Below, one piece after another: positions 2,960 through 62,283 of a stretch of DNA of 64,000 nt. The translations under genes were made by a program, and so were the position numbers. Each line of letters begins with the position of its first letter. Positions within the stretch are counted from its first letter, which is position 1. Source of the stretch: Narthecium ossifragum. Its lineage: Eukaryota > Streptophyta > Magnoliopsida > Dioscoreales > Nartheciaceae. The stretch lies in the NCBI GenBank assembly GCA_963920575.1, contig OY986971.1, forward strand, positions 19,644,492-19,708,491, written 5' to 3'. The notes under the pieces were generated by a model that was given only the letters and a program-made list of their open reading frames with translations, ran no database searches and had not been told where the DNA came from.

Positions 2960-3080
2960 AGGAGATCGATCTGGATGGCTAGGGAGATTGATCTGGATTG
3001 CAAAGGAGATCGATCTGGATTTCAAAGAGATCAATCTGGATTGCAAAGGAGATCGATCTCACATGCCTTGGAGATCGATC
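2960..3080. repeat. GATCGATC palindrome array in the Tekay LTR
   Basis: About seven units, spaced roughly 15-20 bp, carry the core AGATCGATCT with a GGAT or CACA side. Two units read GATCAATC or GATTGATC, the change expected from CpG deamination. The array lies about 210 bp into the LTR, in the presumed U3. Confidence 0.85.
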
Positions 3081-4022
3081 ATGCTCGAGTCGGTGTTTTC
3101 TTTCTCTTTCGCGAGGACGGCCGTCGGCCGTCGCTCTCCCCTGTCAGAGAGGGAAGACTTCCCCTCCCTTTCCCCCAGCTTTTCCCCGTTTTCCCGGCTT
3201 TCTCCAGGCTTTTCCTTCCTTTTCTTTCCTTCCCTTCCCTTCTCTTCTTCTTCCTTCCTTCTCTCTTTCCCGCGGTGCTCTGTTTTCTTCCCTTTACCGC
3301 CGGCGAGCTTCATCTCCTCCGTTCTCCCTCCTCCGGCCATCTTTTTCGGCGTTCTAAGGCTCGTTGGATTCGTGACAACAAGAGGAAGATCCCTGAAGTG
3401 GTTTGGAGAATTTTTGGTGATCAAATCGCGGGGAATCAGCCGAGGAAAGCGCAGCTAGGTAAGGTTATACCTACTGTGTTCTTTTCGGGTTTTCTTGAGA
3501 TCTAGCCGTTGGATCTTGTTGACCATTGCTTTGCTGGATTTCTTATGCCTTGTAGAATAACTGATTTAAGTTTCATGTTAATCAGTTGAGATTTGAGTAG
3601 GTTTTATGCAAGATTAGTCTCGGATTTCTCGTTTTCTGCTGTTCTTGAGAAACAGCCGGCTTGCGGCGAGTTTTTTGGGCGGTGAGTACATGATCTTGGC
3701 TTTTGAAAAACATAAGCGTTGTAGGTCTACTGGTTACCTTTCCATTCCATCTTGTTTCTTATTTTTCCGATTTATGTACGATTTCTTATAAATTGTTTGA
3801 TGGAGGGCTGCGTTGCAGCAATTAATGGGTAAGTTAGTTTGATTAACGATTTTGATTAGCGTTTTCCCGTTAATCCAACCGTTGGAGGATTATGATTTTT
3901 GGATATGATGATTCTGGTTTATACACCTACGGGTGACTAAGTTGGATCTTGAATCCGACATCGTTTGGACGTCGGATCGACGGGATCAATTAGCCCCTAA
4001 GTAGAAGCTTTGGGTGTTTTTG

Positions 4023-4058
4023 AATATAATATTATATTTCGGAATATAATATTATATT
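4023..4058. repeat. Duplicated 16-bp AT palindrome
   Basis: AATATAATATTATATT is its own reverse complement and occurs twice, at 4023-4038 and 4043-4058, separated by TCGG. Confidence 0.9.
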
Positions 4059-5174
4059 GTGTTTTGTTCATCATCGTTTTCGGGGTTGCTTCCCGTTGCA
4101 GGAGTTCGCGGGCGACGGTCGCGGTACCGTCGTAATGCCGGGACCCGTTGCGGATCGGCTGGCAGCGGTTGGTAGTACCGCTGCAGCGATCCAGTAGACT
4201 TATATGATGCTTGACATACTGTTGCATGCTTTGCTTCTTATCTGTGTATGTCATAGCATGCATCGTTGCCTTGTGCATTAGTTGCATTGGTTAAGGCGTG
4301 GGTGATCTTTGGGTCGCCGTCCCGAGGCTGGAAGCTCGGACTTAGCCCTAGGACCGGGGTTGGGCTGTTAGGACCCGGTTTGAATTGTGGTGTCCAGTCC
4401 ATTCGATGATAGGCTTAGATGACTGACGCACTTGTTCTTGATGATTGTAGAGGTCGTGTCGGCCTCGACTTGGATCTGAGGTGTAGCCGGTGTCCGGTTC
4501 TTCTTAAAACTCTTGAGTAGAGGATTTGCCTACTCAGTGGTGTCTCTTCCCACCAAATAGTGTTCAGTGTCCTGTTGAGAGTTAGCAGTGTTGTTTCCTG
4601 CTACTGAGTGTGACCTGACATGTGACCAGCCCGGCTGGAAGACCATGATCGTGGGCCTCAGGGACACGCGGTGGGGTTATGGGACCCCTGTATACACCCA
4701 GATTCCACTTGAGGGCGACACTGTTGCGATTCCCTCTTCCTTCTGTGTGTCGTAGTGTAGATCCCTACTGAGCTTAGTGCTCACTCCTACCCGGGCTGCG
4801 TTTTGCAGGTGCAGGCGTCAGTTCTTCCTCTGTGGCCCCTACCGGGCAGTTGGACGGCGGTGCGGCGGCGCCTGGTGGCTTTTCAGAGGTGGCGATATTT
4901 ACTGCTTTTACCCTTATGTTAGTTAGTCTCCTACGGGAGTGATGTTGTACTTTGAATCTTCCCCTCTCCGAGGATTTGTATATATTAACACTTGAGTTTT
5001 TAATCTGAGGTTCGAGGTTTTGCTAATTAATATTGTTTTAATTGAGGGTGTTTTGGTGATTTGCTAGGGAGACCAATAGGTTAGAGGGAACCCTCGTCGT
5101 TCTTTTTCCGCGTTGGTTAGGTTCCGGTTCACGTCGCCCGGCCCCGTTGGGCTTTCGCGGATCGGGGCGCGACA

Positions 5175-10213: not shown

Positions 10214-11208
10214 TGTTAGCCCAGATATTGTTTTGATGATGTCAATATATATTTTGATGATAAAATATCGGTTTAATATTATTATCCCTTAATTTGGAAA
10301 GCATTAAAATCTTATTTAATGAGTTTTTGTACTGACGGTCGATGCGACAGACGATGCATGGATCGACCGTAGGGAATGGCGGTTGATGCGTGGATCGACA
10401 GCGGAAGCTGTTCTTGGGAAAATAGGCTGACGATCGATGTAACGGTCGATGGACCGATCGACCATGACCTATGTGACTTGGCTCGAAGGAGCGACGGTTG
10501 ATCGGTGCATCGACCCTGGGAAGCGGTTTTTGCAACAGAGCCTGACGGACGATGTCACGGTCGATGGGACGATCAACCGTGGCTCAAGGAAAGCCTGGCG
10601 AACGATGTCACGGATGATGCGATGGTCGACCGTGAGCCCAGAAAAGAGCCGTTAAAGAGCCGTTGCAGGAACATAAACTAGCCGTTGGGAGGCTATTTGG
10701 AGGGTTTTGAAGCTCAGCTATAAAAGGAAAGTTGTAACAAACTTCGCTGGGACTTAGAGGGAGCTAAGGGATTTTTGTAATCATATTCTAGCAGGTTTCT
10801 ATCTCTTATTAGTGAGCTAAACCTTTGTAAAACTACTTCAAGTGTGAAGTAAACTTTGAGAGAAATATCCAAGAGAGAGCTTGGAGAGATTATAAGGTCG
10901 CGAAGCACCAGTAAGCTTGGTGGATAGGTTGCCAAGCACCCGGAAGCTTGGTGGACAACTTGTAAGAGGTCTTGCATGTAGTGAAACCTCAAGGAGGACC
11001 TTGAGTGAAGCGGACGTAGGCAATGTTTGCCGAACTACTATAAATCTGGTGCAATCTCTCTATCTCTCATCTCTTATCCTTGTTTTAACATAGATTTTCT
11101 GCTCTTATCATTGCAAGCATATTATTTGATTAGATTCCTCCTACTCAGATTTCCTTAATTGATTTTTTTGTTTAAAGCCTAAGATAAACCCCCCCTCTTA
11201 GAGCTTCA
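10214..11208 (+). repeat. 5' LTR of the gag-only Copia element
   Basis: 995 bp, TGTTAGCC to AGCTTCA. A TCGA-palindrome array occupies 10335-10634 and a TATA box (TATAAAAG) lies at 10719-10726, about 85 bp beyond it. Downstream is the presumed leader with repeats of AAGCTTGGTGGA. Confidence 0.9.
10335..10634. repeat. GGTCGACC-type palindrome array, Copia 5' LTR
   Basis: About fifteen sites of the form CGGTCGAT, GGATCGACCG or GGTCGACCGT, many arranged as facing half-pairs. Compared with the 3' LTR, this copy has about 16 bp more at the left end and lacks a roughly 34-bp unit in the middle. Confidence 0.85.
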
Positions 11209-11210
11209 AT

Positions 11211-12992: not shown

Positions 12993-14004
12993 TGTTAGCC
13001 CATATATTGTTTTGATGATGTCAATATATATTTTGATGATAAAACATCGATTTAATATTATTATCCCTTAATTTGGAAAGCATTAAAATCATATTTAATG
13101 AGTTTTTGTATTGACGATGCATGGATCGACCGTGGGGAATGGCAGTTGATGCGTAGATCGACCGTGGAAGCTATTCTTGGGAAAATAGGCTGATGGTCGA
13201 TGTGACGGTCGATGGACCGATCGACTGTGGCCTATGTGACTTGGCTCGAAGGAGCGACGGTCGATCGGTGCATCGACCCTGGGAAGCGGTTTTCACAACA
13301 GAGCCTGACGGACGATGTCACGGTCGATGGGACGGTCGATCGTGAGGCCTGACGGACAATAGGTGGATCAACCGTGGCTCATGAAAAGCCTGGCGGACGA
13401 TGTCACGGACGATGCGACGGTCGACCGTGAGCCCAGAAAAGAGCCATTAAAGAGCCTTTGCAGGAACAGAAACTAGCCGTTGGGAGGCTATTTGGAGGGC
13501 TTTGAAGCTCAGCTACAAAACGGAAGTTGTAGCAAACTTGACTGGGACTTAGAGGGAGTGAAGGGATTATTGTAATCATATTCTAGCAAGTTTCTATCTC
13601 TTATTAGTGAGCTAATCTTTGTAAAACTACTTCAAGTGTGAAGTAGACTTTGAGAGAAATATCCAAGAGAGAGCTTGGAGAGATTGTAAGGTTGCCAAGC
13701 ACCAGTAAGCTTGGTGGATAGGTTACCAAGCACCCGGAAACTTGGTGGACAACTTGTAAGAGGTCTTTCAAGTATTGGAACCTCAAGGAGGACCTTGAGT
13801 GAAGCGGACGTAGGCAAGGTTTGCCGAACCACTATAAATCTGGTGCAATCTCTCTATCTCTCATCTCTTATCCTTGTTTTAACCTTGATTTTCTGCTCTT
13901 ATCATTGTGAGCATATTATTTGATTAGACTCCTCCTACTCAGATTTCCTTAATTGATTTTATTGTTTAAAGCCTAAGATAAAAGCCCCCCCTCTTAGAGC
14001 TTCA
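12993..14004 (+). repeat. 3' LTR of the gag-only Copia element
   Basis: 1012 bp, same borders as the 5' LTR. The TATA box is changed to TACAAAAC (13515-13522). Array units sit at 13113-13430. Differences from the 5' LTR are concentrated in the array. Confidence 0.9.
13113..13430. repeat. GGTCGACC-type palindrome array, Copia 3' LTR
   Basis: Same type as 10335-10634, with one extra unit (GGTCGATCGTGAGGCC and neighbours) and a shorter left edge. Confidence 0.85.
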
Positions 14005-16640: not shown

Positions 16641-16689
16641 CTAAATTTTAAAGGGTTTTCATCAATTTTGACTATTTTGACCGGTTTTG

Positions 16690-17599: not shown

Positions 17600-19202
17600 T
17601 GATCAATAAATTTTATATCTCGCAAGTATACGAATCGGTGCAATCAGTATAGTAGCAAGACGAGTATCGTACCCACAGAGATTTGTAAAGATTATTAGAG
17701 TGAAACGCCAAAGAACAGAAAAGAAAGAAAATAAGAAAGGGAAAATAAGAAATATGAAGTCTCGAAGATAGATGACCAAATAACGAAATAAGAAAACGAT
17801 AGAAATATGATGGATGGATACTAAGGTTCCGATTTCACCATAACATCCTCATTCTATGCATTGAATCAATAAAGATCTCAGTTTAATTCCAAGGGCTCAT
17901 TCTTTCGGTATGATGATCCGTTCGGTCGCGGTCTTCACCAAGTACCCTCAATTAACCCTAGCTAATGAACCCATAACTAAGTGTTAACCAAGAATCAATT
18001 AAGCTCTGAAGAACAATTATGAACCAAGAATACTCTTAGCTTGAACCCGGCCTCGACATAAACTCATTCATTCATAGATCCTGCAAGATTAGGGAATAAA
18101 CCCTCGCCCAATCTCACATACAACAATCTATAATACTTCTATTGGTCAGATAAAGGTATTTAAGATCTCAGTTATAATAATGAATGAAACAAGGAAAATA
18201 AACTGATAAAATAATCATGATCCAATAACATAGAATGATTCAATTAGGGCTACATCGGTACCTTAGAGAAGAAACTAGCCACTCATGTTCACCATGAGGG
18301 CAACAAAACTAATGAAGAAATAAAGAAGAAATAAGAAAAGAAAACCAAGACTGAAACCCTTCTCCTCGCCTCCAAATGCTGCCAAAAAGTCCCCCTCAAA
18401 CCCTAAAAAGAGTCCTATTTATAGCCCCAAAGTCACACCATCAACGGATTTGTTCTAAACCGTTGATTTAGTTCACTGGGAACGTCCGATCGATCCTCCT
18501 CGGGATGTTGGATCGATCAGTATCATTAAAATCTTCAACTTCTATTTACGCCCGAGTCCGATCGATGGATGGATCGATCGCACTATGTTCCTCTAAAAAG
18601 CATACGTTCTGTCATCCTTTAATTTCCAAGTCCGATCGATCGGACTATGAGTGTTGGATCGATCGGTTGAGTAAAAATCCGCTGTTTTTGGCTTTTCCCG
18701 AGTCCGATCGATCGGACCATTGGTGTCGGATCGATCGGACCCCATAGGAGGGATGGAGGGATCGATCAGACCCTATATGGCTGAAAATTATATGTTCTGT
18801 CACGTTTCTGCGTAGTTCGATCGATCGGCGGATCGATCGGACTTCCAGCTTATTTTCTGTTCTGCCATTCAGACTGCGCCATCGGTACTAAAAGTCCCGT
18901 AACTTTCTCCAGGAAACTCGGAATCCCGAACCGTAAAATTCTCCCGAATCTAGACTTCAAGAGCTTTCCAACTACATATAGGACATCATCTGGTTATTCA
19001 TGAGCAGGTACAGATTAATTTTTGAAGTTGATCCATATACTCTTTTCAGCTTCTTTTAGCCCCAATTTCCTGCATTTTCCAAACAACCATGTGAAGCAAC
19101 ATATAGATGTAAAAATAATACTAAAGATGTTGATTAAGGATAATAATCCAGCAATTGAGATGGTTATAAGGCTATTTAGAGTGCACTTTCATGCACTCAT
19201 CA
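17600..19202 (-). repeat. 3' LTR of the Athila-type element (plus-strand left copy)
   Basis: 1603 bp, on the plus strand TGATCAATAAAT to CACTCATCA. A TATA box (TATAAATA on the minus strand) is at 18416-18423, and the palindrome array 18485-18845 lies just upstream of it in the element's sense. Confidence 0.93.
18485..18845. repeat. CCGATCGATCGG palindrome array, Athila 3' LTR
   Basis: About twelve sites with core TCCGATCGATCGGA or GGATCGATC, placed about 60 bp upstream of the TATA box in element sense. Pairs such as CCGATCGATCGG with GGATCGATCGG face each other a few bases apart. Confidence 0.9.
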
Positions 19203-25817: not shown

Positions 25818-27420
25818 TGATGAATAAATTTTATATCTCGCAAGTATACGAATCAGTGCAATCAGTATAGTAGCAAGACGAGTATCGTACCCACAGAGAT
25901 TTGTTAAGATTATTAGAGTGAAACGCTAAATAACAGAAAAGAAAGAAAATAAGGAAGGGAAAATAAGAAATATGAAGTCTCGAAGATAGATGACCTAATA
26001 ACGAAATAAGAAAACGATAGAAATATGATGGATGGATACTAAGGTTCTGATTTCACCATAACATCCTCATTCTATGCATTGAATCAATAAAGATCTCAGT
26101 TTAATTCCAAGGGCTCGTTCTTCCGGTATGATGATCCGTTCGGCCGCGGTCTTCACCAAGTACCCTCAATTAACCCTAGCTAATGAACCCATAATTAAGT
26201 GTTAACCAAGAATCCATTAAGCTCTGAAGAACAATTATGAACCAAGAATACTCTTAGCTTGAACCCGGCCTCGACATAAACTCATTCATTCATAGATCCT
26301 GCAAGATTAGGGAATGAACCCTCGCCCAATCTCACATACAACAATCTATAATACTTCTATTGGCCAGATAAAGGTATTTAAGATCTCAGTTATAATAATG
26401 AATGAAACAAGGAAAATAAACTGATAAAATAATCATGATCCAATAACATAGAATGATTCAGTTAGGGCTACATCGGTACCTTAGAGAAGAAACTAGCCAC
26501 TCATGTTCACCATGAGGGCAACAAAACTAATGAAGAAATAAAGAAGAAATAAAAAAAGAAAACCAAGCCTGGAACCCTTCTCCTTGCCTCCAAATGCTGC
26601 CAAAAAGTCCCCCTCAAACCCTAAAAAAAGTCCTATTTATAGCCCCAAAGTCACACCATCAACGGATTTGTTCTAAACCGTTGATTTAGTTCACTGGGAA
26701 CGTCCGATCGATCCTCCTCGGGATGTTGGATCGATCAGTCTCATTAAAATCTTCAACTTCTATTTACGCCCGAGTCCGATCAATGGATGGATCGATCGCA
26801 CTATGTTCCTCTAAAAAGCATACGTTCTGTCATCCTTTAATTTCCAAGTCCGATCGATCGGACTATGAGTGTTGGATCGATCGGTTGAGTAAAAATCCGC
26901 TGTTTTTGGCTTTTCCCGAGTCCGATCGATCGGACCATTGGTGTCGGATCGATCGGACCCCATAGGAGGGATGAAGGGATCGATTGAACCCTATATGACT
27001 GAAAATTATATGTTCTGTCACGTTTCTGCGTAGTCCGATCGATCGGCGGATCGATCGGACTTCCAGCTTATTTTCTGTTCTGCCATTCAGACTGCGCCAT
27101 CGGTACTAAAAGTCCCGTAACTTTCTCTAAGAAACTCGGAATCCCGAACCGTAAAATTTTCCCGAATCTAGACTTCAATAGCTTTCCAACCATATATAGT
27201 ACATCATCTGGTTCTTCATGAGCAGGTACAGATTAATTTTTGAAGTTAATCCATATACTCTTTTCAGCTTCTTTTAGCCCCAATTTTCTGCATTTTCCAA
27301 ACAACCATGTGAAGCAACATATAGATGTAAAAATAGTACTAAAGATGTTGATTAAGGATAATAAACTAGCAATTGAGATGGTTAGAAGCCTATTTAGAGT
27401 GCACTTTCATGCACTCATCA
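25818..27420 (-). repeat. 5' LTR of the Athila-type element (plus-strand right copy)
   Basis: 1603 bp, same length as the other LTR. TATA box at 26634-26641 (minus strand) and array at 26703-27062. Confidence 0.93.
26703..27062. repeat. CCGATCGATCGG palindrome array, Athila 5' LTR
   Basis: Same number and order of units as in 18485-18845. Single changes include GATCAATGG and GATTGAACC, which break the TCGA core. Confidence 0.9.
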
Positions 27421-32822: not shown

Positions 32823-34427
32823 TGATGAGATGTGAGAAGTAAACAAATTAACCCCTTAATTTACCTTTGTTAGTTTTCAAGTAAGGTATTTCTAATAATC
32901 TTCATGGTATTTCAGGTACAAGAGCCCTCAACAAGAGTTAGATCAAGTTTGGAGCGAAAATGAGCCTATTCGGGCACATTAAAGTACGTGGGTCAACTTC
33001 AAAAATTAATGTACATGCTCAGGAAGAACCAGATGATGCACTATATATAATTAGAAATCTCTTGATGTCTAGTTTTTGGAGAATTTTACGGTTCGTAATT
33101 TTGATATTTTTAGCGGAAGTTACGACATTTTTAATACCAATGACGTAGTGCTGAGAAAGAAGCTGAAATTTTCATGTAGAATTAAAAGATCGATCTTCAC
33201 AACATATGAAGATCGATCTTTTCTGTGCAGGAACAGTGGCAAAGAGCAATAATTCAAAAGATCGATCTTCTCCCTATAGAAGATCGATCTTCCTCTAGCA
33301 CAGCCAACTATACAGGATGCAAAGATCGATCTTCACCCCTAGAAGATTGATCTTTCCTTGCTAGTTAAGCAAAATGAAGGGCCCAGATCTAAGCCCAATG
33401 AGAGAAGTTTTGGGCAAGGAAAGGGGCAACCCTAGCTTGGGAAAGAGGAGAGCTCTCTCCTCCAAGGGAAGGGATTGAAGAAGAGAAGGATGATCCAACT
33501 CTTCTTCACATCTCGAACAATAAAGATGAGTAGCTAATCTCCTATCCTAGTGGAATACCATGATGTTTTAGGTTTTCTTTGTAGTTTTCTTTGAATTTGG
33601 ATGTTGTAATCATTGTGAGACAAGTTGTATAAATTTATTCTTCATTTCTATACCTTTGTAGTTGGATTCTAATGTTGAATGGTGGATCTCATTCTATTGC
33701 ATAGGCTAGACCCTTATGCTTGGATGGTATTTGTTGATATTCCCAAATGAGTAGGCTATGGTAGAACCATGACCACTCATGTTGAAAGGAGTATTGACTC
33801 TAGATTAGGGCTTGTAGGTGCTAGAACCACCCCAATCCACATCTAGCCTAGAGTCCATTCTATATTTTGTAGTGTATTGGATGCGATGTGTTAGAACCAC
33901 CTCGATATATTACTATTTTTCATACAACCGAACTCCTTGCAACGAGATGATCCTAACCTGACCTCTTGTTAGCGATGATCGAAGATAATCCCTCGATCAT
34001 TGACTTTCTAGCTTAGACTATTTGCGACGGATAGTCCTTAACCGGCTATTCGTTAGCAACAACCTTTGTTGACCACAAGGTAGTCGATATTGTATTGCAT
34101 CGATAGAATTGCACATCTTGATCCATTAGAAAGCTACGATTGAACCTAATTCAAATTGAGACTTTCTAGGACCTCTCTCTATCCCTTGAATCATTTACAT
34201 GTTTCCGTAGTTATCATATTCTAAAACCCAAAACCATTTCTTTTTTATCCTTGTAGGAACACTTAGATTAGGCCTTGTAGTTTAATTATTTCCATATACA
34301 TTCCCTGTGGATTCGACTCGAACTCACCGCTAGCTACCTCCTAAGTAGTTAGTTAGTTAGTAGTTTGATTATAAATTTATAATTTTGAACGGACGCATTA
34401 AATTTTGACACTTTTCGAGCCTTATCA
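32823..34427 (+). mobile_element. Solo LTR (Gypsy type) inside LINE1 ORF1
   Basis: 1605 bp, TGATGAGATGTG to GAGCCTTATCA, with GTGAA duplicated on both sides (32818-32822 and 34428-34432). The end region GATTCGACTCGAACTCACCG shows it lies in plus orientation and is related to the Athila-type LTRs. It carries a palindrome array at 33185-33357. TATATATAA at 33042-33050 lies upstream, not downstream, of the array. Confidence 0.93.
33185..33357. repeat. AAAGATCGATCTTC hairpin array
   Basis: Three pairs of facing palindromes: AAAAGATCGATCTTCA, 7 nt, TGAAGATCGATCTTTT is a perfect hairpin, followed by two close variants with 6-9 nt loops. One half reads GAAGATTGATCTT. Confidence 0.92.
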
Positions 34428-36642: not shown

Positions 36643-36882
36643 GGATCGATCCCTCCCTCAAGGGAGGATCGATCCCTCTAATGACAGAGAACAAACTCTC
36701 CATATCGCGCCGAGTCCAATCGATCCATCCTCCCAGTACGATCTATCCGACTCGCGATAGGGAACATCCCATGCTACCCAAGGCACCGGGATCGATCGTC
36801 CTCACCCGAGACTGATCGATCCTGCTCCGGTCAGCATGACCAACAAGGAGGGATCGATCCATCTCAAAGACGGATCGATCGC
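36643..36882. repeat. GGATCGATCC array, downstream copy in the Tekay solo LTR
   Basis: About eight sites with core GGATCGATCC, some decayed to CCAATCGATCC. In element sense it lies about 340-580 bp past the TATA box. Confidence 0.85.
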
Positions 36883-37247: not shown

Positions 37248-37475
37248 GCAGGATTGATCCGTCCAAGGAGACCGATCGATCCGTCCAAGAGAACGATCGA
37301 TCCGTCCAAGAGAACGATCGATCCATCCAAGAGAACGATCGATCCAGCCAAGAGAACGATCGATCCAGCCCAAGAGACCAATCGATCCTTCTCCGAGTCC
37401 GATCGATCCTTCGCAACGATTCATATTCCTGACATTGACCGATCGATCCCTCTAGCAAGGAAGGATCGATCCGTC
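37248..37475. repeat. CGATCGATCC tandem array next to the TATA box
   Basis: A near-regular tandem of about 19-bp units (CGATCGATCCGTCCAAGAGA) repeated some six times, then four dispersed sites. It ends about 20 bp before the TATA box in element sense. Confidence 0.92.
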
Positions 37476-37732: not shown

Positions 37733-39736
37733 ATGTGAGGACCCGTTCCTCAAACCTGACTCAACCGTGTGTGTCGAGGGTCGTTCCACACTCACGTTGT
37801 GCACACACGACCTTGGGATGATGTCTTTGTTTGATTAGAACCCTTAGGTGTGACCAGGATCGAAAGATCAAGGTTAGGACATAAGCGTTTGCTCGTTTGG
37901 CACTTTTCAGTATGAGAAGATCGATCTTTTAGGCATAAACGATCGATCTCCTTGTGCCTGGAAAGTCTTTGAATTGTCAGGAGAAAAGATCGATTGATCT
38001 CTCTCGTCGTGACTGGTCCTATAAGTAGGACATGTCTCTTTCCTTTGGATTTCTTTTGGAAATCGAGGATGAAGATCAAATCCGGTGGCTTGAGGAGGAT
38101 CATTTGGACGATCCAAAGCTTGTTGATTTGGATTTGGAGGCTTCCAGCAGTTCTAGGTAGGGATCTCTACCCAAGTCATGTGATTTGGTTTCTTACGGCT
38201 TGTTCTCTTCTCTTTTGCTTAGAACTATTTGTTTAGCCATTGGTTTTCTGGTATTTTGGTGTTTTTGGACTCCTCTAGTCCTACGCTTTCCGATCCATGA
38301 ATTTCACGAAGTTTGGTTTTGTATTCCGTGAGTTTTCCGACGTTTTCTTCGGTGGGTTTCCGGCGTTGCATAAGAAGGATCGATCTTCTCCACACAAGAA
38401 GATCGATCTCCCTTGTGACCTCACGCCCAACCCGAGGAGGATCGATCTTCATGGCCATGAAGATCGATCTCTTCTTGCACAAGGCGGTGCTGCGCTGCGG
38501 CCGGAGGAAGATCGATCTTCATATGAGGTGAAGATGGATCCTTTCCTTGGCTGTGGCCCGAGTAAGTTGATTTTGATTTGGTTTTCAATGGCTTTGATTT
38601 CAAATCAACTCGGTTTTCTTATATGTCTTTCCTACTGTTAGAATTAGGATATTAAAATGTTTTAATCGTGATTTCATGGTTTGCCTTCGAGTTTTACGAT
38701 GATTTGTATTTCGAATCGTTTTGCCGATTTTTATGGATTTTAATCGATTTTTCAATCTGTAGTTGCATTTATTTATTATGCTTTATTTTAGTTGTAACTT
38801 GTAGTAGTTAGATCTTTACCGCTTTGTGGCTAACCGAGAGAATCATAGTTGTACCTCATATTGTTGATATGCCATATAGTGACACATAGGTTAGATGCAG
38901 GTATAGGTGCATGCATTTGATTGCATTAGGTGCATTCTAGGTTAGGATGTGGGCGATGGGTTGATCGCCGATCCGAGGCTCTCGGGTAGCTCGGGTCTAG
39001 CTCTAGGGTCATGGTTGGGTAGCCAAGTCTAGGGCAAGATTGTGGTGTTATTGGTTTACCATATCATGGTTCTTGAGGTTTAGAGGTCATACCATTATCC
39101 CTTGCCAAGCTTAAGGTGTGGGTGTGCTTTACTTTCCTGTTGTTGACGTTTGTTGAGCACTAGACCCGCGTGATCCCCGGCGTGATTCGCGATTGGGGAG
39201 CGCCTAGAGCCTGTGTGATCCCCGTCGTGTTTGCATGCTTGTAGTTGGTTGCGCCTTAGGCTTGGCAAGGAGACGGTTCAGTTGCAGTTAGCGGCTCTTT
39301 TCAAAATGCGTTCCTTGAGTGTGACATAGAGTAGAACCCTACTGAGCTTTGTTACTCACTCCTACCTGGCTTGCGTTTGCAGGTGCAGACGCCAGTGCTT
39401 CCGTAGCTCCCAACAGATCAGCTTTTGGCGCCGTGTCGACTTCTGGAGGGCATTGAGGTGATTAAAGATCTGATAGTACAACTTGATAGTTTTGTATACA
39501 ATATCCCTCGTGGATCAGTTTATATGTATAATTCCATCTTTGAGTAATTTTGATATAGATCTTTACAAGTCTGATGTTAATGGAATAGTAAGTATTTAAA
39601 TTGCAGTTTTGCCATCATAAGTCTTTTGTTTAGGTTATTGTGGTAATTGTTGTATCACGTCAGATCGGAAGTGAATAGGTGCAGGTCCCTCCCCTCACAT
39701 TCTAGTTCGAATGGGTTCTCTTGGGTCGGGGCATGA
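37733..39736 (+). mobile_element. LTR of a Tekay-related family, plus strand
   Basis: Starts TGTGAGGACCCGTTCC and ends GTCGGGGCATGACA, matching both ends of the Tekay LTRs. No polymerase sequence adjoins it, so it is a solo LTR or a remnant. The flanking 5-mers (CAACA and CAGTG) do not match, so no target duplication is claimed. Arrays lie at 37916-38003, about 17 bp before TATAAGTA (38020-38027), and at 38375-38540. Only about 45 bp of LINE2 sequence separate it from the previous solo LTR. Confidence 0.8.
37916..38540. repeat. AAGATCGATCTT arrays flanking the TATA box
   Basis: Group 1 (37916-38003) has four sites before the TATA box. Group 2 (38375-38540) has six sites in facing pairs such as GATCGATCTTC, 9 nt, GAAGATCGATC. 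The same two-group layout is seen in the minus-strand Tekay solo LTR. Confidence 0.88.
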
Positions 39737-39741
39737 CACAG

Positions 39742-41428
39742 TGATAAAACGTGAAAAGTGTCGCGGCTTAACGCGCCCGATCAAAATTAGAAATTTATAA
39801 TCAAACTCTCTACTAACTACCTTTGGGGGTAGCTAGTGGTGAGTCAGAGTCGATCCATTGGGAAGAAACTAGGATTGAAGCGACATACTAAGCATAATCG
39901 TCTACCAAGAAGTTAGAGGAAAAGATTAAGATTTGGGTTCTTAACTAGACTAGACTAAAATTAATGCGAAAAGGTGATAAAATTTGAAGAAGGGCCGAGG
40001 GATTCTTAATCAATAACAAGGGTTCTAATACTTCTTCCTAGGACCAGGGCATGCTTCCTCAAATTGAATGGTTAAATCCAAATGTCGATAGGCGAGTGGC
40101 GAGTTACACCTATCACTCGATGAGGCTCGGGTTAAAATCCCTCGTCAGCAAGAACAAAGCTCTAATAATCGGCGACCGAATGATTAGTTGTGATCGCCGC
40201 TAACGAACCCTCTAATTAGGATGCATTCGTCGCAAGAGAGCTAACATAGTATGGATGCAGGTGTGATAGCGAGGCGGTTCTAGCACCTCGCTGGCCAAAA
40301 TCCCAATGATAGGATGGGTGGAGGGTTAGGAATAGATTGGTGGTGGGTCTAGCACCCCAATCTATTCCAATCTTGGATTAGAATCCTTCCCCGTGAGATA
40401 ATCCATGGTTCTAGCATGAATCCCTCTCATGAGAGGTTCCATCCAAGCCCTAGCATGCAAGACCTAGATCTAGGGCACAATAGGGCAATCCAAGCATTCA
40501 TCAATGAAAACAACACCAAATTCATATAGAAATTAAATCCAATCAATACAACCATTCAATAGAGTAGCAAAAGCCCTAAATCCTAGGATTCCTTAAAAGA
40601 AACCCTTATTACAACATAAGAATCCCTAAGCTAAGAGTTTAGTGACTCATCTTGGGGGTTTGATTCGTGGAGGAAGGTTGATGACGCTCTCCTTCCATGG
40701 ATCTCCTCCAAAAAGGCCTTATTCTAAATTAGGTAAGAGGAGTCTCAAAGAGGAAAGGCTGGAAAAAGTCTAAGAGAGAGGCCTCCAAAATTCCCCCAAA
40801 GGGGTCTATTTATAGATTACAAGCATCCCCCACTCGGATTAGATCTGTCCCGTTGATTTTGCTCAGCTGGCACATAAAGATCATTCTTTATAGGGTAAAA
40901 GATCCATCTTTCTCTTCCGTGTGATTGTCGGTCCCGTGGAAGATCGATCTTCCCTATGAATGAAGATCGATCTGTGTTCTGGACTGGTGGCTGCGTCCCG
41001 GTGAAGATCGATTTTCGTATGCTGTGAAGATCGATCTTTTGCGCTTCATATGCTCCTCAGCTCCATTAGGTGATCGATCTTTTAGTAGACGATCATGCCC
41101 TAGGGAAAGATCGATCATGCCCTAGGGAAAGATCGATCATTTCAAAGCTTGCGCTCTGTCTTTGGAAATGCACATAGAGGATCGATCTTCTCATGATGAG
41201 AAGATCGATCTTTGTTGTTCCGCCTAGATTTCTTCTTGATGCCTTTAAAGGATCGATCTTCATCAATAAAGGATCGATCTTCTTCATACTAAACTAGCCC
41301 GAATGAGTTCGTTTTAGCTCCAAACTTGATCTAATCTTCGTTGAAGGCTCTTGTACCTGTAGGGTGTTGCTCGAAGACTAACAAGGCCAAATTAAAATGG
41401 TGATTTGTGCATTTTTCACGTCTTATCA
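39742..41428 (-). repeat. 3' LTR of the decayed Athila-type element
   Basis: 1687 bp, TGATAAAACGTG to GTCTTATCA on the plus strand, followed by the polypurine tract (GTTAGGGGGTG on the minus strand). TATA box (minus) 40807-40814; array 40886-41285. Confidence 0.93.
40886..41285. repeat. AAGATCGATCTT array, 3' LTR copy
   Basis: About fourteen sites. The two nearest the TATA box have decayed (GATCATTC and GATCCATC), while the 5' LTR keeps GATCGATC at both. A roughly 57-bp group present in the 5' LTR is missing here. Confidence 0.9.
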
Positions 41429-42912: not shown

Positions 42913-42924
42913 GTATATTTGTAT

Positions 42925-44700: not shown

Positions 44701-44702
44701 AG

Positions 44703-45824: not shown

Positions 45825-47291
45825 TCATCCCTGAGGTCTCGGCTCTGGAAAGGTAAGAGGTCGATATGGAACGATAGCGGTGACCGGCGGAGGAGGAGGG
45901 TGGAGGTCATCGAGACGCGCGAGGATACGTGAGGCAACCTGGTAAAGTGCGGAGACGTCCTGGCGAAGGCCGGATATGTCCTCTCGAAAGGCGGCGTCAC
46001 GCGCGTCTACCGCGTCCAAACGATGGAGCACGGCGTCCTGAAGCGCTCGGTGCTCACGATAAATCTCGTCCAAGGTAGGGTGCTCCACGGGTCCAAACTA
46101 TGGCGATGTATGTACAGGTCTCGGCTGTCGTATGGGCGCGCCGACCTTTCGCATGTAGCCAAGGACCTTGCCCCAGGTGGCGGCACCGAAGTAGGCAAGC
46201 CTGAGGGCCTCGGTAGAAACGGTCGGCTCGCCCTCCGGGACAAGATCCTGACTGGATAAGAAGGATGAAATCAGGTTCGGGTGCGGGACAACTTTGTTGT
46301 CATAGCTCGGTTTCCGGTCCCGAACCACCCCGTGGTAAAACTGCGTCATATCCTCTAAAATCTGTTGAGGTATGTAGAGCGCCCACTCCTTGGCCAACAA
46401 CCACAATGTGCAAAGCCAACAACCAATCCGATATTGGTCATAGTCGTTCTGAAAGACGTTGCGGCGCAAGATCTCGTCGATCAACCAAAATGAGCCCTGC
46501 AGCTCGACATGCGTAAATGTGCCTCCGCCCGTGCATACCGGGTGGAGGAAGAGGTGAGCATCGGAGTCCCGAACGTACAACTCCTCGGGTCGGAATTTGT
46601 AAAAGTTCAGGGCAGCGAATAGGAATCCCCAAAACCTCCGAGATGGTTTTGGACGTTAATGTAACCTCGACCCCTTCAATCACGGATGAGAAGCCACAGG
46701 CGGGGAAGGATCCATCAGTAGCATCATCCCTATCATCCTTGTAGGCGATGACTTTCATGTTCTGGTAGAACATGCAGACAAGCCTAGGGTACACCGTGGT
46801 CTCAGGTGTGCACAGAGGTAGAAGACCACGGCTTTTTAGGATTGCGATGGACTCCTGGGCATGCTCGATAGTACGAAAGAAATCAACATCGAAAGTGAAT
46901 TTGAGGTTTACCTCCCGCTGCCATTGCAGAAGTAGACCTCGGACGACCGTGGGCGCAGTGGAAGGCCGGACATTCTTCTTGAGCTTCTTGGATTGGCGAG
47001 GGTTGGATGAAGAAGCAGTTGAGGTTTTCCTTTTTGATGTTATCGGAGCCGTGGGCAATGCGGCCGGAGCTCTCGCGGTCCGCACCGGCCGTGTGGAAGA
47101 AACAGGAGGGGTGGCAGTTTATCGTGAAGGTGGTGAAGTAGGAGGGTGGAAGCTTATCGTGGAGGTGTCGGAGGTCCTGGAAGCCTCGCTAAAGGAGTGG
47201 AGGGAGGCCTTGCCGGTGGTGTGGAAGATGAAGCGGCGGCCTTTCCTTTCTCGACGGCCTTTTTGGTGGCGGCGGTTGACTTGCGGCCCAT
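45825..47291 (-). pseudogene. Athila ORF3 (envelope position), frameshifted
   Basis: Minus strand. A start at 47291 reads MGRKSTAATKKAVEKGKAAA. The frame breaks, then continues with PITSKRKTSTASSSNPRQSK, a basic region, and NLKFTFDVDFF, YPRLVCMFYQNMKVIAYKDD, SVIEGVEVTLTSKTISEVLG. After another shift near 46610 comes ELYVRDSDAHLFLHPVC, LQGSFWLIDEILRRN and CWLCTLWLLAKEWALYIP. A TAG precedes HPTLDEIYREHRALQDAVLH and DISGLRQDVSALYQVASRIL, a coiled-coil end. The middle resembles the putative plant transposon protein domain found in extra ORFs of Athila-like elements (recalled). No transmembrane segment is evident, so it is not clearly an envelope protein. Confidence 0.72.
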
Positions 47292-47583: not shown

Positions 47584-48185
47584 AAGATCGATCTTAGGGC
47601 TTGTGAGCCCTAAGTCGATCTCCCTCCTATATATATTTTTTAACAATCCCCGCAAAAGATTGATCTTTTGCAGGGAGAAAGATCGATCTTTTGATACGTG
47701 GCAGCATCATAAAAGGATCTGGCTTAAGGCGCGCTGACGTGTACAAGTAAGATCAATCTTCTTCACTTGGCCTCTCAGCTAAGATGGGGCAAAGGTAAGA
47801 GCGATCTTCCATGCAAGAAGCTCGATCTTACTGTCTCTGAGAATTGCAGAAACTCCGTAAAAGATCGATTTTCAAGTGATAAAAGATCGATCAACTCAAA
47901 ACCATCCCTCTGTCACAATTAAATGCGCAAGAAAGATCGATCTCCAGTGACGAAAAGATCGATCCCCTCAAAACCATCCCTTTGTCACAATTAAATGCGC
48001 AAGAGAGATCAATCTTCAGTGACGGAAAGATCAATCACCTCAAATCCATCCCTCTGTCACATTTAAATGCGCAAGAGAGATCGATCTTCAGGTGACGAAA
48101 AGATCGATCATTCATACCCAAGCTTCAGCTCCTATACAAACGGATGCAAAGGATCGATCTTCACACCTCGGAAGATCGATCTTTT
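47584..48185 (-). promoter_or_regulatory. Internal palindrome array and TATA box upstream of ORF3
   Basis: About eighteen GATCGATC-type sites, in facing pairs, lie between the end of pol (48536) and ORF3. In element sense most of the array (48185-47650) is followed after about 15-20 bp by TATATATA (47628-47635) and then by ORF3 about 340 bp on. Decayed units read GATCAATC. This repeats the U3 arrangement inside the element, so I infer an internal promoter for ORF3. Confidence 0.65.
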
Positions 48186-54188: not shown

Positions 54189-55784
54189 TGATGAGTGCAT
54201 GAAAGTGCACTCTGAATAACCTTAAAACCATCTCAATTGCTATATCTTCACCCTTAATCAACTTCTTTAGCACTATTTTTATAGTAAATGTTACTTCACA
54301 TAGTTGCTTGGAAAATGCAGGAAATTGGAGCTGAAAGAAGCTGAAAAGATTATATGGGTCGACTTGGAAGATGAACCTGTACCTGATGATGAAGAACCAG
54401 ATAATGTGCCATATATGGTTGAAAAGTTCTTGAAGTCTAGTTTCTGGAGAATTTTATGATTCGTGATTCCGAGTTTTCTAGAGGAAGTTACAACATTTTT
54501 CGTACCAGTGCGCAGTGCTGAGTGAATAGTGGAATCCTCACGGTCGACCGTCAAATCCTCACGGTCGACCGCGGAGCCCGAAAATCATCACGGTCGACCG
54601 TAAGATGCTCACGGTCGACCGTTGCATCGACCGTCAGCCTCTGTCAACGAAAATACTTCGCAGGGTCGATGCGAAGATCGACCGCAGTTTATCAAAATAA
54701 ATTGTGCACCTCACGATCGACCGTCAGGGTCTCACGGTCGACCGCCAGATCAGCCAGGGGCGTATAACGGGTTTAACCTTAACCCGAGTTTGCTAATTCT
54801 TGGACCCTATAAATAGGAAACTTAGGGTTACTCAAAGGAGTTCTTGGACGTTTTTGGAGGCTATTTTCTGGACGTTTCCCAAAGGAAGAAGATGAAGGAA
54901 TCTCCATCCATGGCCGAGTAATCCGCGGGCATGGTGGACGGATGATCTAGTGAGGACTAGGGCTTCTTCTCCAACAATGGTTCATAGTTTTTAATCTTCA
55001 TTGTTAAACTCTTTTCTATGTATTGGATCTTCAAATATTATTTTCAGATTATAGATTTCTATGTGGATGATAAATATTATGAATCCAGTCATGCTTCTTT
55101 CATGATCTTATAATCCCATAGTCTTCTCATTTGATTCTCCTACCGAGTCTTCCGAGACCTTTGCTATGCATTGCCCGTAGTGACAATTGGTATTGTGTAT
55201 TCTTAGGGATCTGGTGACACAAGGTTGGGGCTCTATCATGAGGAATCTTTGCTATGCATTGCCGATTGTGAGAGTTGGTATTGTGTATTATTAGAAATCC
55301 GGTTAGATAGAGTTAGGGCTTTGTCCCGATGAACTTTTGCTACGCGTTGCCTGTAGTGACAGCCGGTATCGTGTATTATTAGGTTTGGTTGGATGAAGTT
55401 AGAACTATAAAAAGGAAGAACTAATCGTAGGAGGAGACATTTATAAATTTTGTTAGGTTTATAGTTCCATATCTTCCGGTTAAGGTGATTGGGATGTGAA
55501 TCCCTTAACTGAATATCATATGAACCGTTGAGAAGAGAAGAACCTAAATCCGAGTGAAGTGATTCCTGAAGCCTAGCCTCATCAAAATCCTGATATCTCT
55601 AGTTAACCTTACATTATCATTAACTCCTTTGATCTAATTTAGTTACTTCTCAAGTTCTTGTTTGTCTTCAATTCATTGTTATTTGTATTTCTGGATCTTT
55701 CCTGCTTGTCTCTCTGTGGGATTCGACCTCTCTTATGCTGTACTGCACCGCGACCGCTGTGCGTGACACATTTGAGCGATATCA
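54189..55784 (+). mobile_element. Solo LTR inside the Athila gag
   Basis: 1596 bp, TGATGAGTGCATG to GAGCGATATCA, with ATATA duplicated (54184-54188 and 55785-55789). Removing it joins the gag frame RRAMKDFYI to PNSFTSNSCIQPP on the minus strand. It has the array 54538-54748 and a TATA box (TATAAATA) at 54808-54815. A set of three repeats of CTTTGCTATGCATTGCC (55160-55380) lies further down. Confidence 0.93.
54538..54748. repeat. CACGGTCGACCGT palindrome array
   Basis: About ten sites, most of them exact ACGGTCGACCG, spaced 14-30 bp, ending 60 bp before the TATA box. Same core as the Copia arrays although this LTR is Gypsy-type. Confidence 0.93.
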
Positions 55785-56243: not shown

Positions 56244-57923
56244 TGATAAGACGTGTAAAGTGTCGCGGCTTAACGCGCCCGATCAAAATTAGAAATTTAT
56301 AATCAAACTCTCTACTAACTACCTTTTGGGGTAGCTAGTGGTGAGTCCGAGTCGATCCACCGGGAAAAAACTAGGATTGAAGTGGCATACTAAGTATAAA
56401 ATATGAAGAAGGGTCGAGGGATTCTTAATTAATAACAAGGGTTCTAATACTTCTTCCTAGGACCAGGGCATGCTTCCTCAAATTGAATGATTAAATCCAA
56501 ATGTCGATAGGCGAGTGGCGAGTTACACCTATCACTCGACGAGGCTCGGGTTAACATCCCTCGTCGGCAAGAACAAACGTCTAATAATCGGCGACCGAAT
56601 GATTAGTTGTGATCGCCGCTAACGAACCCTATAATTAGGAAGGATTCGTCGCAAGAGAGCTAACATAGTATGGATGTAGGTGTGATAGCGAGGCGGTTCT
56701 AGCACCTTGCTGGTCAAAATCCCAATGATAGGATGGGTGGAGGATTAGGAATAGATTGGTGGTGGGTCTAGCACCCCAATCTATTCCAATTTTGGATTAG
56801 AATCCTTCGCCGTGAGATAATCCATGGTTCTAGCATGAATCCCTCTCATGAGAGGTTCCATCCAAGCCCTAGCATGCAAGACCTAGATCTAGGGCACAAT
56901 AGGGCAATCCAAGCATTCATCAATGAAAACAACACCAAATTCATATAGAAATTAAATCCAATCAATACAACCATTCAATAGAGTAGCAAAAGCCCTAAAT
57001 CCTAGGATTCCTTAAAAGAAACTCTTATTACATCATAAGAATCCCTAAGCTAAGAGTTTAGTGACTCATCTTGGGGATTTGATCTGTGGAGGGAGGTTGA
57101 TGACGCTCTCCTTCCATGGATCTCCTCCAAAAAGGCCTTATTCCAAATTAGGTAAAAGGAGTCTCAAAGAGGAAAGGCTGGAAAAAGTCTAAGAGAGAGG
57201 CCCCCAAAATTCCCCCAAAGGGGTCTATTTATAGATTACAAGCATCCCCCACTCGGATTAGATCTGGGCCATTGATTTTGCTCAGCTGGCACATAAAGAT
57301 CGATCTTTATAGGGTAAAAGATCGATCTTTCTCTTCCGTGTGATTTCTGATCCCGTGGATGATCGATCTTCCTATGGATGAAGATCGATCTGTGTTCTGG
57401 ACTGGCGGCTGCATCCCGATGAAGATCGATCTTCCTATGGTGTGAAGATCGATCTTTTGCGCTTCATATGCTCCTCAGCTCCAGAAGGTGATCGATCTTT
57501 TAGTAGACGAAGATCGATCCTCTAAATCGTTGCGCTCTGTCATCTCTTTTGCCTGTGAAAGATCGATCTTGTCCAAGGGAAAGATCGATCTTGTCCAAGG
57601 GAAAGATCGATCCTTTCAAAACTTGCGCTCTGTCACTGAAAATGCACATAGAGGATCGATCTTCTCATGATGAGAAGATCGATCTTTGTTGTTCCGCCTG
57701 GATTTCTTCTTGATGTCTTTAAAGGATCGATCTTCTTCAATAAAGGATCGATCTTCTTCATACTAAATTGGCTCGAATGAGTTTGTTTTAGCTCCAAACT
57801 TGATCTAATCCTCGTTGAGGGCTCTTGTACTTGTAATGGGGTAATGGTAGTCAGTAGGGCGTTGCTCGGAGACTAGCAAGGCCAAATTGAAAGGATGATT
57901 TGTGCACTTTTCACGTCTTATCA
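56244..57923 (-). repeat. 5' LTR of the decayed Athila-type element
   Basis: 1680 bp. TATA box (minus) 57236-57243; array 57295-57760. It lacks about 85 bp present in the 3' LTR near 39890-39990 and has an extra array group. Confidence 0.93.
57295..57760. repeat. AAGATCGATCTT array, 5' LTR copy
   Basis: About seventeen sites in facing pairs, including a tandem GAAAGATCGATCTTGTCCAA repeated twice that is not in the 3' LTR. Confidence 0.9.
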
Positions 57924-57928
57924 CACAG

Positions 57929-60900: not shown

Positions 60901-61122
60901 GAAGCTGGCCGGGTCACACTGGTGAAGTCGGTTTTGCAGAGCATCCCTGTTCATGCGATGACTACCTCTGTTCTTCCTGTTCCTGTCATCAACAGCTTGG
61001 AAGGCTTGTGTCGGAGTTTCTTGTGGAAAGGAAAGCCAGCAGGTCTTAATGCAGTGGCTTGGCGCGATGTGTGCAATCCGAAGGAGTGGGGAGGACTTGG
61101 GATCATGAACTATGCAATATGG
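57929..61122 (+). pseudogene. LINE2: end of ORF1 and ORF2 (endonuclease, RT)
   Basis: After the Athila element LINE2 resumes with ORF1 remains, including a duplicated segment GGGGGCAGGAAGCCTYTGGA (58059 and 58150). ORF2 starts near 58597 with LIYWNCRRAGPGRVVR; the endonuclease has RRGGILVCWRVAHGR, LIIGEFNAIVSAEEKRGG (Asp of GDFN changed to Glu) and VGSDHAPLLV. RT has VKDYRPISLCNVGYKVFTSI, VKVDLMSAYDRVRW, LRQGDPLSPYLFIL and LLYADDCLLV, so the YADD box is kept. Stops at about 59156, 59360, 60250, 60289 and 60529 and frameshifts near 59450 and 59760 disable it. It ends at NPKEWGGLGIMNYAIW, cut by the Copia element. Confidence 0.92.
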
Positions 61123-62283
61123 TGTTGATCCTAACCTTATTTTGATGATGCCAATATACATTAAATGATAAAATATATGTTTAACATTTATTACCCCTTT
61201 AATTGGAAATCTTAAATTCAATATTTAAGTTATTTTTGTACTGATGGTCGATGCAAGGATCGACCGTGGGAATGTCGCGGTCGATCCATGGATCGACCGT
61301 GGTGAATGTTTCATACTTGGCAATATGCGTATTGGCTCACGGTCGATCGGTGCATCGACCGTGGGAAGTGTTTTTCTTCACAGAGCCTGACGGACGATGC
61401 GGCGGTCGACCGTGGCGCATTAATGAAGAATGTGAAGAAGCGACGGTCGATCGGTGCATCGACCCTGGGAGGCGTTTTTCTTCACAGAGGCTTATGGACG
61501 ATGCGACGGTCGATGCGGCGGTCGACCATGGCGCATATATGAAGAAAAGTCAAGGAGCGACGGTCGATCCGAGCATCGACCCTGGGAAGCGACCTTCTCA
61601 ACAAAGGCTCACGGACGATGTGACGGTCGATGTCACGGTCGACCGTGAGAGGGACGGACGATGCGTGGATCGACCGTCGAGCAAAAAGGCTGAGTTTTTT
61701 ATACGTGACGGACGATGCATGGATCGACGGCCAGCAGCGTGCAGAGTAAAAAACTAGCCATTGGAGAGTTGTAGGGAGCCGTTGGAGCTCCTAGATGAGC
61801 TGGTTGAAGCCCAAGTATAAGTAGTTCCTTCATGTAAACTTGCTACAACTTTTATCATTATTATTGAGATCATTTGAGCAAGTTCTAGAAAAGATTTCTA
61901 CTTATTCTCCTTTGAGCTAAAACCTTTGTAAGCCTTCTTCAAGTGTGAAGAGGTATTTTGAGAGTTGTTCAACAGCAAGTGGCTGTGATTGTAAGGTCAC
62001 CAAGCACCAGGAAGCTTGGAGGAAAAGCTTGTAAAGGATTTGCAAGTAGTGGAACCTCAAGAAGAGCCTTGAGAGAAGTGGAAGTAGACCAAGAGTTGGG
62101 TCGAACCACTATAAATCGGTGTTATCTCTCTAACCCTTCCTTCATTTAATTCTTGCATGCTATTGTAGTTAAGTTTCATTTCGTTTACAAGCATTCAAGC
62201 TGTTAAATCTTTTTCTATCTGAATTTTCCATCAATCTAGTTTTTCGAAAAGGGTCCAATTCACCTCCCCCTCTTAGACCTTCA
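61123..62283 (+). repeat. 5' LTR of the second Copia element
   Basis: 1161 bp, TGTTGATCC to AGACCTTCA. Array 61243-61735, TATAAGTA at 61816-61823, then the leader with CACCAAGCACCAGGAAGCTT as in the other Copia LTR. Confidence 0.9.
61243..61735. repeat. GGTCGACC-type palindrome array, second Copia LTR
   Basis: About twenty-two sites in a repeating module: GCGACGGTCGATCGGTGCAT, CGACCCTGGGAAGCG, then a spacer. Longer than in the gag-only element but clearly the same module. It ends about 80 bp before the TATA box. Confidence 0.9.

Follow-up and report, generated by a model that had tools for sequence, protein, structure and literature searches.

The long terminal repeats (LTRs) of retrotransposons in a 64,000-nucleotide stretch of the Narthecium ossifragum genome (contig OY986971.1, positions 19,644,492 to 19,708,491; hereafter the window) carry arrays of palindromes with TCGA at the dyad, which are often paired at 21-23 bp, end at a usual distance from the TATA box in Athila and Tekay-like elements, and share sequence between Ty3 and Ty1 elements. 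On balance, and with moderate confidence, we favour the explanation that these arrays are promoter cassettes bound by host dimers, which spread by exchange as well as by convergence.

Palindrome arrays in three retrotransposon lineages

The arrays are genuine and lie far above chance. Among the 314 occurrences of TCGA in the window, 101 sit at the dyad of a perfect palindrome 8 bp or longer, compared with 15.6 expected from dinucleotides, making TCGA the most over-represented palindrome centre; on the same expectation, GATCGATC is found 83 times (1.2 expected) and GGTCGACC 11 times (0.5 expected). The LTRs (20.7 kb) contain 85 of the palindromes, one internal array (0.6 kb) contains nine, and the other 42.7 kb of this plant DNA, rich in transposable elements, contain seven, a density of 4.1 per kb in LTRs versus 0.16 per kb elsewhere, counted with the ends of LTRs B and D set by hand, LTR F cut at 39500, and limits that differ by a few bases or more from the final ones. 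All three LTR pairs detected by self-comparison, in which the palindromes were not used, bear arrays. The ratio of observed to expected CpG exceeds the window mean (0.74) in 14 of 15 arrays and, with perfect palindromes masked, amounts to 0.85-1.63 in 13 of them, dropping in LTRs G1 (0.31) and T (0.00). Genome-wide, AAGATCGATCTT occurs 12,229 times and ACGGTCGACCGT 12,621 times, versus 33 and 10 for their reversed-letter controls. We further sampled 20 regularly spaced 10-kb stretches in the first 10 Mb of five contigs (200 N), and later three more; the first 200 kb of this sample hold 82 copies of GATCGATC, where 2.8 are expected.

These results, the enrichment in LTRs among them, bear out much of a preliminary description of this DNA, which had reported such arrays at nine named LTRs. 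TCGA-dyad arrays are present in all nine, and its counter-examples stand as well: the solo LTR 5380-6820 has no palindrome, the 400 bp past the array of 2752-5174 (G1) are devoid of a TATA box, and the nearest one downstream in 32823-34427 (T) follows only at 276 bp. Missed at that time were the second arrays of LTRs E and F, the array of C2, the internal array at 47584-48183 and the regular spacing of the palindromes. The features are as follows (TSD, target site duplication; ORF, open reading frame).

2963..3080 (+): array of LTR G1 (Tekay-like, 2752-5174); six sites, spaced by 22, 22, 21, 22 and 22 bp, not alternating between short and long; TATA absent from the 400 bp that follow
10361..10631 (+): array of Sirevirus LTR C1 (10214-11208); degenerate GGTCGACC/GATCGATC type
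10719..10724 (+): TATA box of C1, 88 bp past the last palindrome
13124..13428 (+): array of LTR C2 (12993-14004), partner of C1 and 89% identical to it; no TATA within 400 bp after it
18488..18838 (-): array of Athila 3' LTR A3 (17600-19202); CCGATCGATCGG type; TATAAATA at 18423, 65 bp off
26706..27056 (-): array of Athila 5' LTR A5 (25818-27420), same as that of A3, the LTRs being 97% identical; TATAAATA at 26641, 65 bp off; TGGCGCCGTTGCCGGGG after the LTR
33186..33352 (+): array of solo Athila LTR T (32823-34427); AAGATCGATCTT type; TSD GTGAA; nearest downstream TATA at 276 bp
36643..36880 (-): second array of LTR E, downstream of TATA
37252..37472 (-): upstream array of solo Tekay-like LTR E (35586-37683); for the most part, units of 21-22 bp in a row; TATA at 37229, 23 bp off; TSD CGTGG on the + strand
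37917..37999 (+): upstream array of Tekay-like LTR F (37734-39738); TATA at 38020, 21 bp off
38378..38540 (+): second array of LTR F, downstream of TATA
40901..41279 (-): array of Athila 3' LTR H3 (39742-41428); AAGATCGATCTT type; TATAAATA at 40814, 87 bp off; TATAAAGA at 9 bp
46438..47118 (-): extra-ORF region of Athila element H, downstream of the internal array; similarity to Transposase_32 weak and under the Pfam cut-off; in-frame stop upstream
47584..48183 (-): internal array I of Athila element H, between the pol end and the extra-ORF region; 16 sites, largely paired; TATATATA at 47628, inside the array end
54540..54744 (+): array of Athila LTR B (start 54189; 3' end not fixed); ACGGTCGACCGT type; TATAAATA at 54808, 65 bp off
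57293..57753 (-): array of Athila 5' LTR H5 (56244-57923); AAGATCGATCTT type; TATAAATA at 57233, 65 bp off; element TSD CACAG on the + strand
57535..57542 (-): one exact copy of gap motif TGACAGAG, the others starting at 36682, 47908, 48052, 54639 and 57628
61258..61675 (+): array of Sirevirus LTR D; GGTCGACC type; TATAAGTA at 61816, 141 bp off

The families bearing the arrays had been called unrelated, a view that our comparison does not support. As comparison of the LTRs gives three shared frameworks, the nine array LTRs are assigned to three lineages, Athila (A, B, T and H), Tekay-like (G1, E and F) and Sirevirus-type Copia (C and D), that is, two of Ty3 and one of Ty1. The Athila group comprises A3/A5, T, B and H3/H5, with B and T placed there by LTR similarity only. 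The pol stretches of elements A and H align at 66-68%, and Ty3-type reverse transcriptase, RNase H and integrase domains are detected in the Athila elements. Directly after the 5' LTR stand TGGCGCCGTTGCCGGGG at A5 and TGGTGCCGTTGCCGGGGA at H5, non-Met primer binding sites (PBS) of a type that we take to be that of Athila. A discussion of non-chromoviruses states that tRNA-Met is not used by them (PMC6317226, in part). Among the best 120 of 7960 protein matches to the pol of element A, eudicots prevail. In the Tekay-like group, the ORF upstream of G1 yields a strong SH3_Tf2-1 match and a Chromo match at E 0.0078, below its cut-off; E and F were included by LTR similarity only.

For the Sireviruses we followed criteria given in passages of Bousios et al. 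(2010; PMC2829016), noting that the internal region of C is short and that D is cut by the window end. The junction of LTR and PBS (CA, ATTGG, TATCAGAGC) is exact in C1 at 11207 and has one mismatch in D at 62282 (TATCAGAAC); C2, a 3' LTR, has none. A C-rich integrase signal lies just inside the LTR end of C1 (ACCCCCCCTC), C2 (GCCCCCCCTC) and D (CACCTCCCCCTC, 62261). The polypurine tract AGGGGGAG is absent upstream of C2, which is preceded by AAAAAAAGGGAGAT instead. The same passages describe RM boxes, high-copy palindromes in the upper half of Sirevirus LTRs that form CpG islands, with the TATA box on average 37 bp past the island. Arrays of the RM-box type CGGTCGACCG stand upstream of TATA in C1 (88 bp) and D (141 bp), C2 having no TATA in range. 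Their CGG-CCG core is present in the Ty3 arrays of ACGGTCGACCGT type (B and the sampled cluster L012:9106) and absent from those of AAGATCGATCTT and GGATCGATCC type.

Spacing of the palindromes and distance to the TATA box

How are the palindromes arranged within an array? Of 115 spacings between neighbours in the window, 55 measure 20-24 bp, with 21, 22 and 23 the commonest, and 19 measure 47-51 bp; A5, H3 and C2, which duplicate A3, H5 and C1, were kept in these counts and dropped from the phasing, mutation and folding analyses. The sample repeats this picture, with 27 clusters in its 23 stretches and 62 of 150 spacings at 20-24 bp. Clusters with at least three sites account for 59 of these spacings, where 2000 random placements give a mean of 15.9 and a maximum of 28. 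The first 20 sampled clusters, 18 of which have similarity to a window LTR within 1.5 kb (versus 28.6% of sampled bases), show an alternation of short with long spacings: 52 neighbours are mixed, versus 36 expected, and none of 5000 permutations reaches this number. The cluster L025:5352-5760 has five spacings of 24 bp in a run, unlike the usual alternation.

All six exact copies of TGACAGAG in the window fall into arrays, which make up 7.9% of it (one each in the downstream array of E and in B, two each in H5 and I), a motif that was picked after inspection; with one mismatch allowed, 14 of 57 copies do so. Strings resembling it are found between pairs in L008 and L018. Among the 29 one-mismatch sites of independent arrays, ten represent A>G or T>C changes between two palindrome types. 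CpG decay at the dyad was considered as the main mutation and discarded, since only eight of the 29 show C>T or G>A there.

Beside the arrays, a TATA box recurs across Ty1 and Ty3 elements, in support of the preliminary description. Counted from the last palindrome with at most one mismatch, the nine TATA boxes it names follow, in order, at 88, 65, 65, 23, 21, 87, 65, 65 and 141 bp, so that the range of 17-100 bp given there is right for eight and wrong for Sirevirus D (61816). The distance to TATAAATA is 65 bp in A3, A5, H5 and B, although the palindromes of A, H and B differ. Exceptions apart, the usual distance amounts to 64-66 bp in most Athila LTRs and to 21-27 bp in those of Tekay-like elements. 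Of 54 cluster sides in the sample, five have a TATAA[AG] that begins 64-66 bp away, where 0.13 are expected, and four have one that begins 21-27 bp away, where 0.33 are expected; within 150 bp of clusters the motif is found 14 times in all (7.2 expected). Three of the clusters at 64-66 bp show similarity to Athila LTRs (L008, L012:3893 and L015:9869), L012:3893 having Tekay-like similarity nearby as well; L018, though lacking an LTR match, is similar in the stretch that precedes TATA, and L026, like all clusters of L025-L027, was given no lineage. Of the four at 21-27 bp, L022 alone is assigned, as Tekay-like; this label, also applied to L010, L016 and L023, derives from 73-79% matches within 1.5 kb, which also set the sense strand.

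The Tekay-like LTRs E (35586-37683, -) and F (37734-39738, +) stand head to head, 50 bp apart, and Athila H has inserted no more than a few bases from where F ends. The second arrays of E and F (36643-36880 and 38378-38540) lie downstream of TATA, in the stretch of the LTR that would be transcribed; the arrays of L010, L022 and L023 may be of the same kind.

Shared array sequence and the internal array of Athila

By sequence comparison, array sequence is common to Ty3 elements and Sireviruses, mainly in inverted orientation. When arrays were compared with gaps shuffled (mononucleotide shuffling within gaps) and palindromes fixed, seven of 110 cross-lineage comparisons, C2 being kept, were unreached by any of 100 shuffles, where about one is expected. 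Six of them were repeated and gave 0 of 2000 shuffles each: B inverted with D, C1 and C2, the upstream array of E with H5, the downstream array of F with H5, and the latter array with T inverted; the seventh, the downstream array of F with I, was run with 100 shuffles only. C1 and C2 are partner LTRs. In direct orientation the match of B with D was reached 147 times in 2000, and the inverted likeness of B, an Athila LTR, to the Sirevirus arrays extends beyond the palindromes. The Athila array of L012 behaves similarly, with 0 of 200 shuffles reaching its inverted match to each of D, C1 and C2. So do the tentatively Tekay-like L010, L022 and L023, inverted against the three Sirevirus arrays, in nine of nine cases; in direct orientation, L010 with C2 was unreached and L023 with D was reached once in 200. 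The direct likeness of B and of L012 to L010, L022 and L023 is weaker, with 8, 7 and 1 of 200 shuffles reaching it for B and 7, 3 and 3 of 200 for L012.

One LTR points to a possible route. In the Athila LTR of L012 (9690-8000, -), positions 301-750, which include the array and the TATA box (638), are nearer to B in eight of nine 50-bp windows, with identities of 0.74-0.84 versus 0.56-0.72 for A5, the remaining window being nearer to A5 (0.70 versus 0.50). Positions 801-1450, by contrast, have an identity of 0.90-1.00 to A5 and of 0.48-0.68 to B, as far as the compared piece of B reaches. Judged by this profile, the LTR looks like a mosaic from a U3 swap, its array and TATA resembling one Athila type while its R-U5 resembles a different one, and its change-over 110-160 bp past TATA would fit a strand transfer in R, a process that yields mosaic LTRs in ONSEN according to a passage of PMC5668417. 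The independent gain envisaged in the preliminary description thus has to make room for exchange, as seen from B and the Sirevirus arrays and from this profile, with convergence staying alongside. The exchange between LTRs that would have told against that description is seen in part, but not as a single recent event.

An array of the same kind also occurs inside Athila elements. In H, the pol end is followed by array I and then by the extra-ORF region, an order repeated in a second Athila element, L008 (+). There, a match to the sequence preceding array I in H (4402-4611) is followed by four paired palindromes (4794-4893) and by a stretch (7203-7798) matching the extra-ORF region of H at 63%, with the LTR starting at 9788. 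A scan of the window found neither an internal cluster nor an extra-ORF region in element A; an array upstream of the extra-ORF region is thus present in two of the three Athila elements whose internal region was examined. The extra ORF of H, at most a candidate env-like gene, is broken and weakly similar to Transposase_32; its open piece has no match at E 0.001 among 740 candidates in a protein search. That array I is a nested solo LTR was considered and rejected, as no LTR ends were visible around it by eye and the order recurs in L008. In its internal region, L008 also has an open frame of 218 residues (5480-6133, +) after a palindrome pair (5508-5537).

Explanations and known systems

The combination of a fixed core with variable flanks, pairing, TATA distance, an internal copy at a promoter-like position and sharing in either orientation gives the arrays the look of an enhancer cassette for a dimeric DNA-binding protein. 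As very dissimilar elements apparently have them in common, they probably serve as a switch that some host protein reads. In the explanation we favour, the arrays would act as cis-regulatory cassettes of LTR promoters and at one internal position in Athila, each TCGA-centred palindrome being a candidate site at which a host DNA-binding protein would bind as a dimer. Sites paired at 21-23 bp, two helical turns, would bring two dimers to one side of the double helix, and the final palindrome would be held at the TATA distance usual for each Ty3 lineage. Such a cassette could function in both orientations. Recombination during reverse transcription may carry it from LTR to LTR, both inside Athila and, on one occasion or more, across the divide between Ty3 elements and Sireviruses.

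Several observations weigh against this explanation. The array of G1 and the upstream one of E show no alternation, consisting simply of 21-22 bp units in a row, and tandem duplication can copy spacings. A strict phasing of all distances at 10.5 bp had to be abandoned, the distances being non-random with a best period of 9.45 bp, or 9.8 bp without the 20-24 bp class; we therefore claim only the peak at 21-23 bp. Neither G1, nor C2, nor either second array (E, F), nor, internally, the last site of I is followed by a TATA within 400 bp, and exceptional distances occur in H3 (87 bp), C1 (88 bp), D (141 bp) and the Athila cluster L012:9106 (53 bp). As the nine cluster sides with a usual distance belong to nine clusters, 18 of the 27 sampled clusters show neither. 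Because the sequence between array and TATA is similar in several Athila LTRs, their distance of 64-66 bp appears to be partly a matter of shared ancestry. The match of L012 with D is unreached in 200 shuffles in direct orientation too, at a lower score (59 versus 114 inverted). Moreover, the two palindrome types may not have one common binder.

Could the arrays work as RNA instead? Paired palindromes might form hairpins in a transcribed 3' U3 and feed small-RNA silencing or aid element survival, as proposed for maize Sireviruses, whose palindromes are small-RNA hot spots according to parts of PMC10760457 and PMC5311732. Their folding beats mononucleotide shuffles in 12 of 12 cases (z -5.5 to -10.9; 20 shuffles each; A5, H3 and C2 excluded) and reaches z <= -2 against palindrome-keeping shuffles in ten of 12. 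The inner flanks of pairs are also more self-complementary (0.72 and 0.61 at the first two positions versus 0.50 and 0.50 for outer flanks), as hairpins would predict too, a point that counts against the host-dimer explanation. However, the flanks show no covariation: inner flanks match their own partner no better than those of other pairs in the array (partner permutation within arrays, 46 pairs, p = 0.26), so that hairpin pairing was rejected as the cause of the pairs and kept as a rival only. Hairpins can account for palindromes, folding energy and the symmetry inside pairs but not for spacing or position, needing neither a TATA distance nor a spacing of 22 bp, and we regard this role as rather unlikely. 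Neutral, fast-evolving tandem repeats, growing by slippage and unequal exchange with palindromes as by-products, would explain why site numbers vary between partner LTRs (11 versus 10 in A3/A5, 12 versus 15 in H3/H5) and why near-identical units run in E (21 bp) and G1 (22 bp). They are nonetheless improbable given the same 8-bp core in three lineages despite diverged spacers, the short-long alternation, the two classes of TATA distance, and two palindromes with more than 12,000 copies each.

The binder might also be encoded by the elements themselves, for instance by the Athila extra ORF, in a system of self-activation or anti-silencing that other elements exploit by copying its sites. The position of the arrays in H and L008, the lack of both array and extra ORF in A, and the array sequence common across superfamilies would agree with this; yet the matchless open piece and weak Pfam similarity of the H extra ORF, and the presence of such arrays in Sireviruses of other plants (PMC2829016, in the passages cited), leave it with little probability. 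Least credible to us is a use by the host, in which the arrays recruit an LTR-recognising repressor and are targets of silencing rather than activators. Their CpG richness would suit a repressor, and palindrome types that differ inside otherwise similar LTRs resemble an arms race, but a purely harmful target is hard to square with elements that keep and seemingly exchange it in many copies.

Going beyond the host-dimer explanation, it is conceivable, though we would not expect it, that a single exchangeable enhancer cassette with a two-dimer grammar is common to the Ty1 Sireviruses and the two Ty3 lineages of this host. In this grammar, two palindromes 22 bp apart would be followed by a gap of about 40-50 bp, and spacers would often resemble TGACAGAG. 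It would move between superfamilies by template switching, with the palindrome type changing in concert, and competing retrotransposons would share and re-tune one host transcription-factor system. Were a single host factor to recognise such a cassette, of which the Ty1 and Ty3 lineages together hold tens of thousands of copies, it could switch on much of the mobile load of the genome, and the evolution of LTR promoters would be one of interchangeable modules. Being short, exact and present in great numbers, the sites lend themselves to a direct binding screen. Tandem repeated binding boxes in U3, like the arrays here, are reportedly carried by Tnt1 and Tto1, in few copies and in one family. 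A symmetry of Tnt1 box I is mentioned in PMC2829016.

How much of this was known? Palindrome arrays next to TATA, including CGGTCGACCG, are established for Sireviruses in the passages of PMC2829016 drawn on here, where CGGTCGACCG, the core type of C, D and B, is a Sirevirus box of Vitis, and the Tnd-1 box ACAATCGATTGT has TCGA at the dyad, as do our arrays. The same passages describe RM boxes as specific to Sireviruses as opposed to classic Copia elements, whereas here they are also found in the LTRs of Ty3 Athila and Tekay-like elements. They differ from Sirevirus RM boxes in that the GATCGATC types mostly lack the CGG-CCG core, in their pairs at 21-23 bp and in their sharing across superfamilies. 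Their position upstream of TATA resembles that of RM boxes in the Ty3 LTRs E (23 bp), F (21 bp), A3, A5, B and H5 (65 bp) and H3 (87 bp), but not in G1 (none) or T (276 bp). A further parallel of position lies in the extra RM boxes that precede the env-like gene of those Sireviruses that have one (PMC2829016), as boxes precede the putative extra ORF in Athila H and L008. Maize Sirevirus LTRs, in the portions of PMC10760457 and PMC5311732 concerned, have clustered palindromes in their regulatory region that vary between copies, as is the case here. Del (Tekay) LTRs of most monocot groups have a variable, CpG-rich 5' stretch, also as here (Cruz et al., 2014; PMC4029996); the word stem palindrom is absent from the main text of that paper, and its relevant passages describe no repeat units. 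Exchange of regulatory sequence has precedents in ONSEN (PMC5668417), in a common LTR motif of wheat Quinta and the Copia family Gisela (PMC11302176) and in regulatory stretches common to species of grass pararetroviruses (PMC5491270), palindrome arrays not being concerned in the passages at hand.

Among titles and abstract beginnings, we recognised no report of Athila or Tekay arrays, a paired grammar or TATA classes, and passages located by word search in PMC11963269 and PMC10794571 do not treat arrays in Ty3 elements. Listings of the plant transcription factor literature held no recognisable binder of GATCGATC. As far as we have found, the apparently new elements are the presence of this architecture in two Ty3 lineages, the 21-23 bp pairs, the usual TATA distances, the array between pol and the Athila extra ORF, and the sharing of arrays between Ty3 elements and Sireviruses.

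Two further stretches of the window deserve mention. Within the span of Athila H, positions 42923-43706 contain dense, overlapping direct and inverted self-matches without a GATCGATC array. Beyond Sirevirus LTR C2, positions 16614-17516 hold a piece of a host-type glycosyltransferase (GT4) that indicates a monocot host, probably not a grass: Musa provides the best of 84 matches (57%), followed by other monocots.

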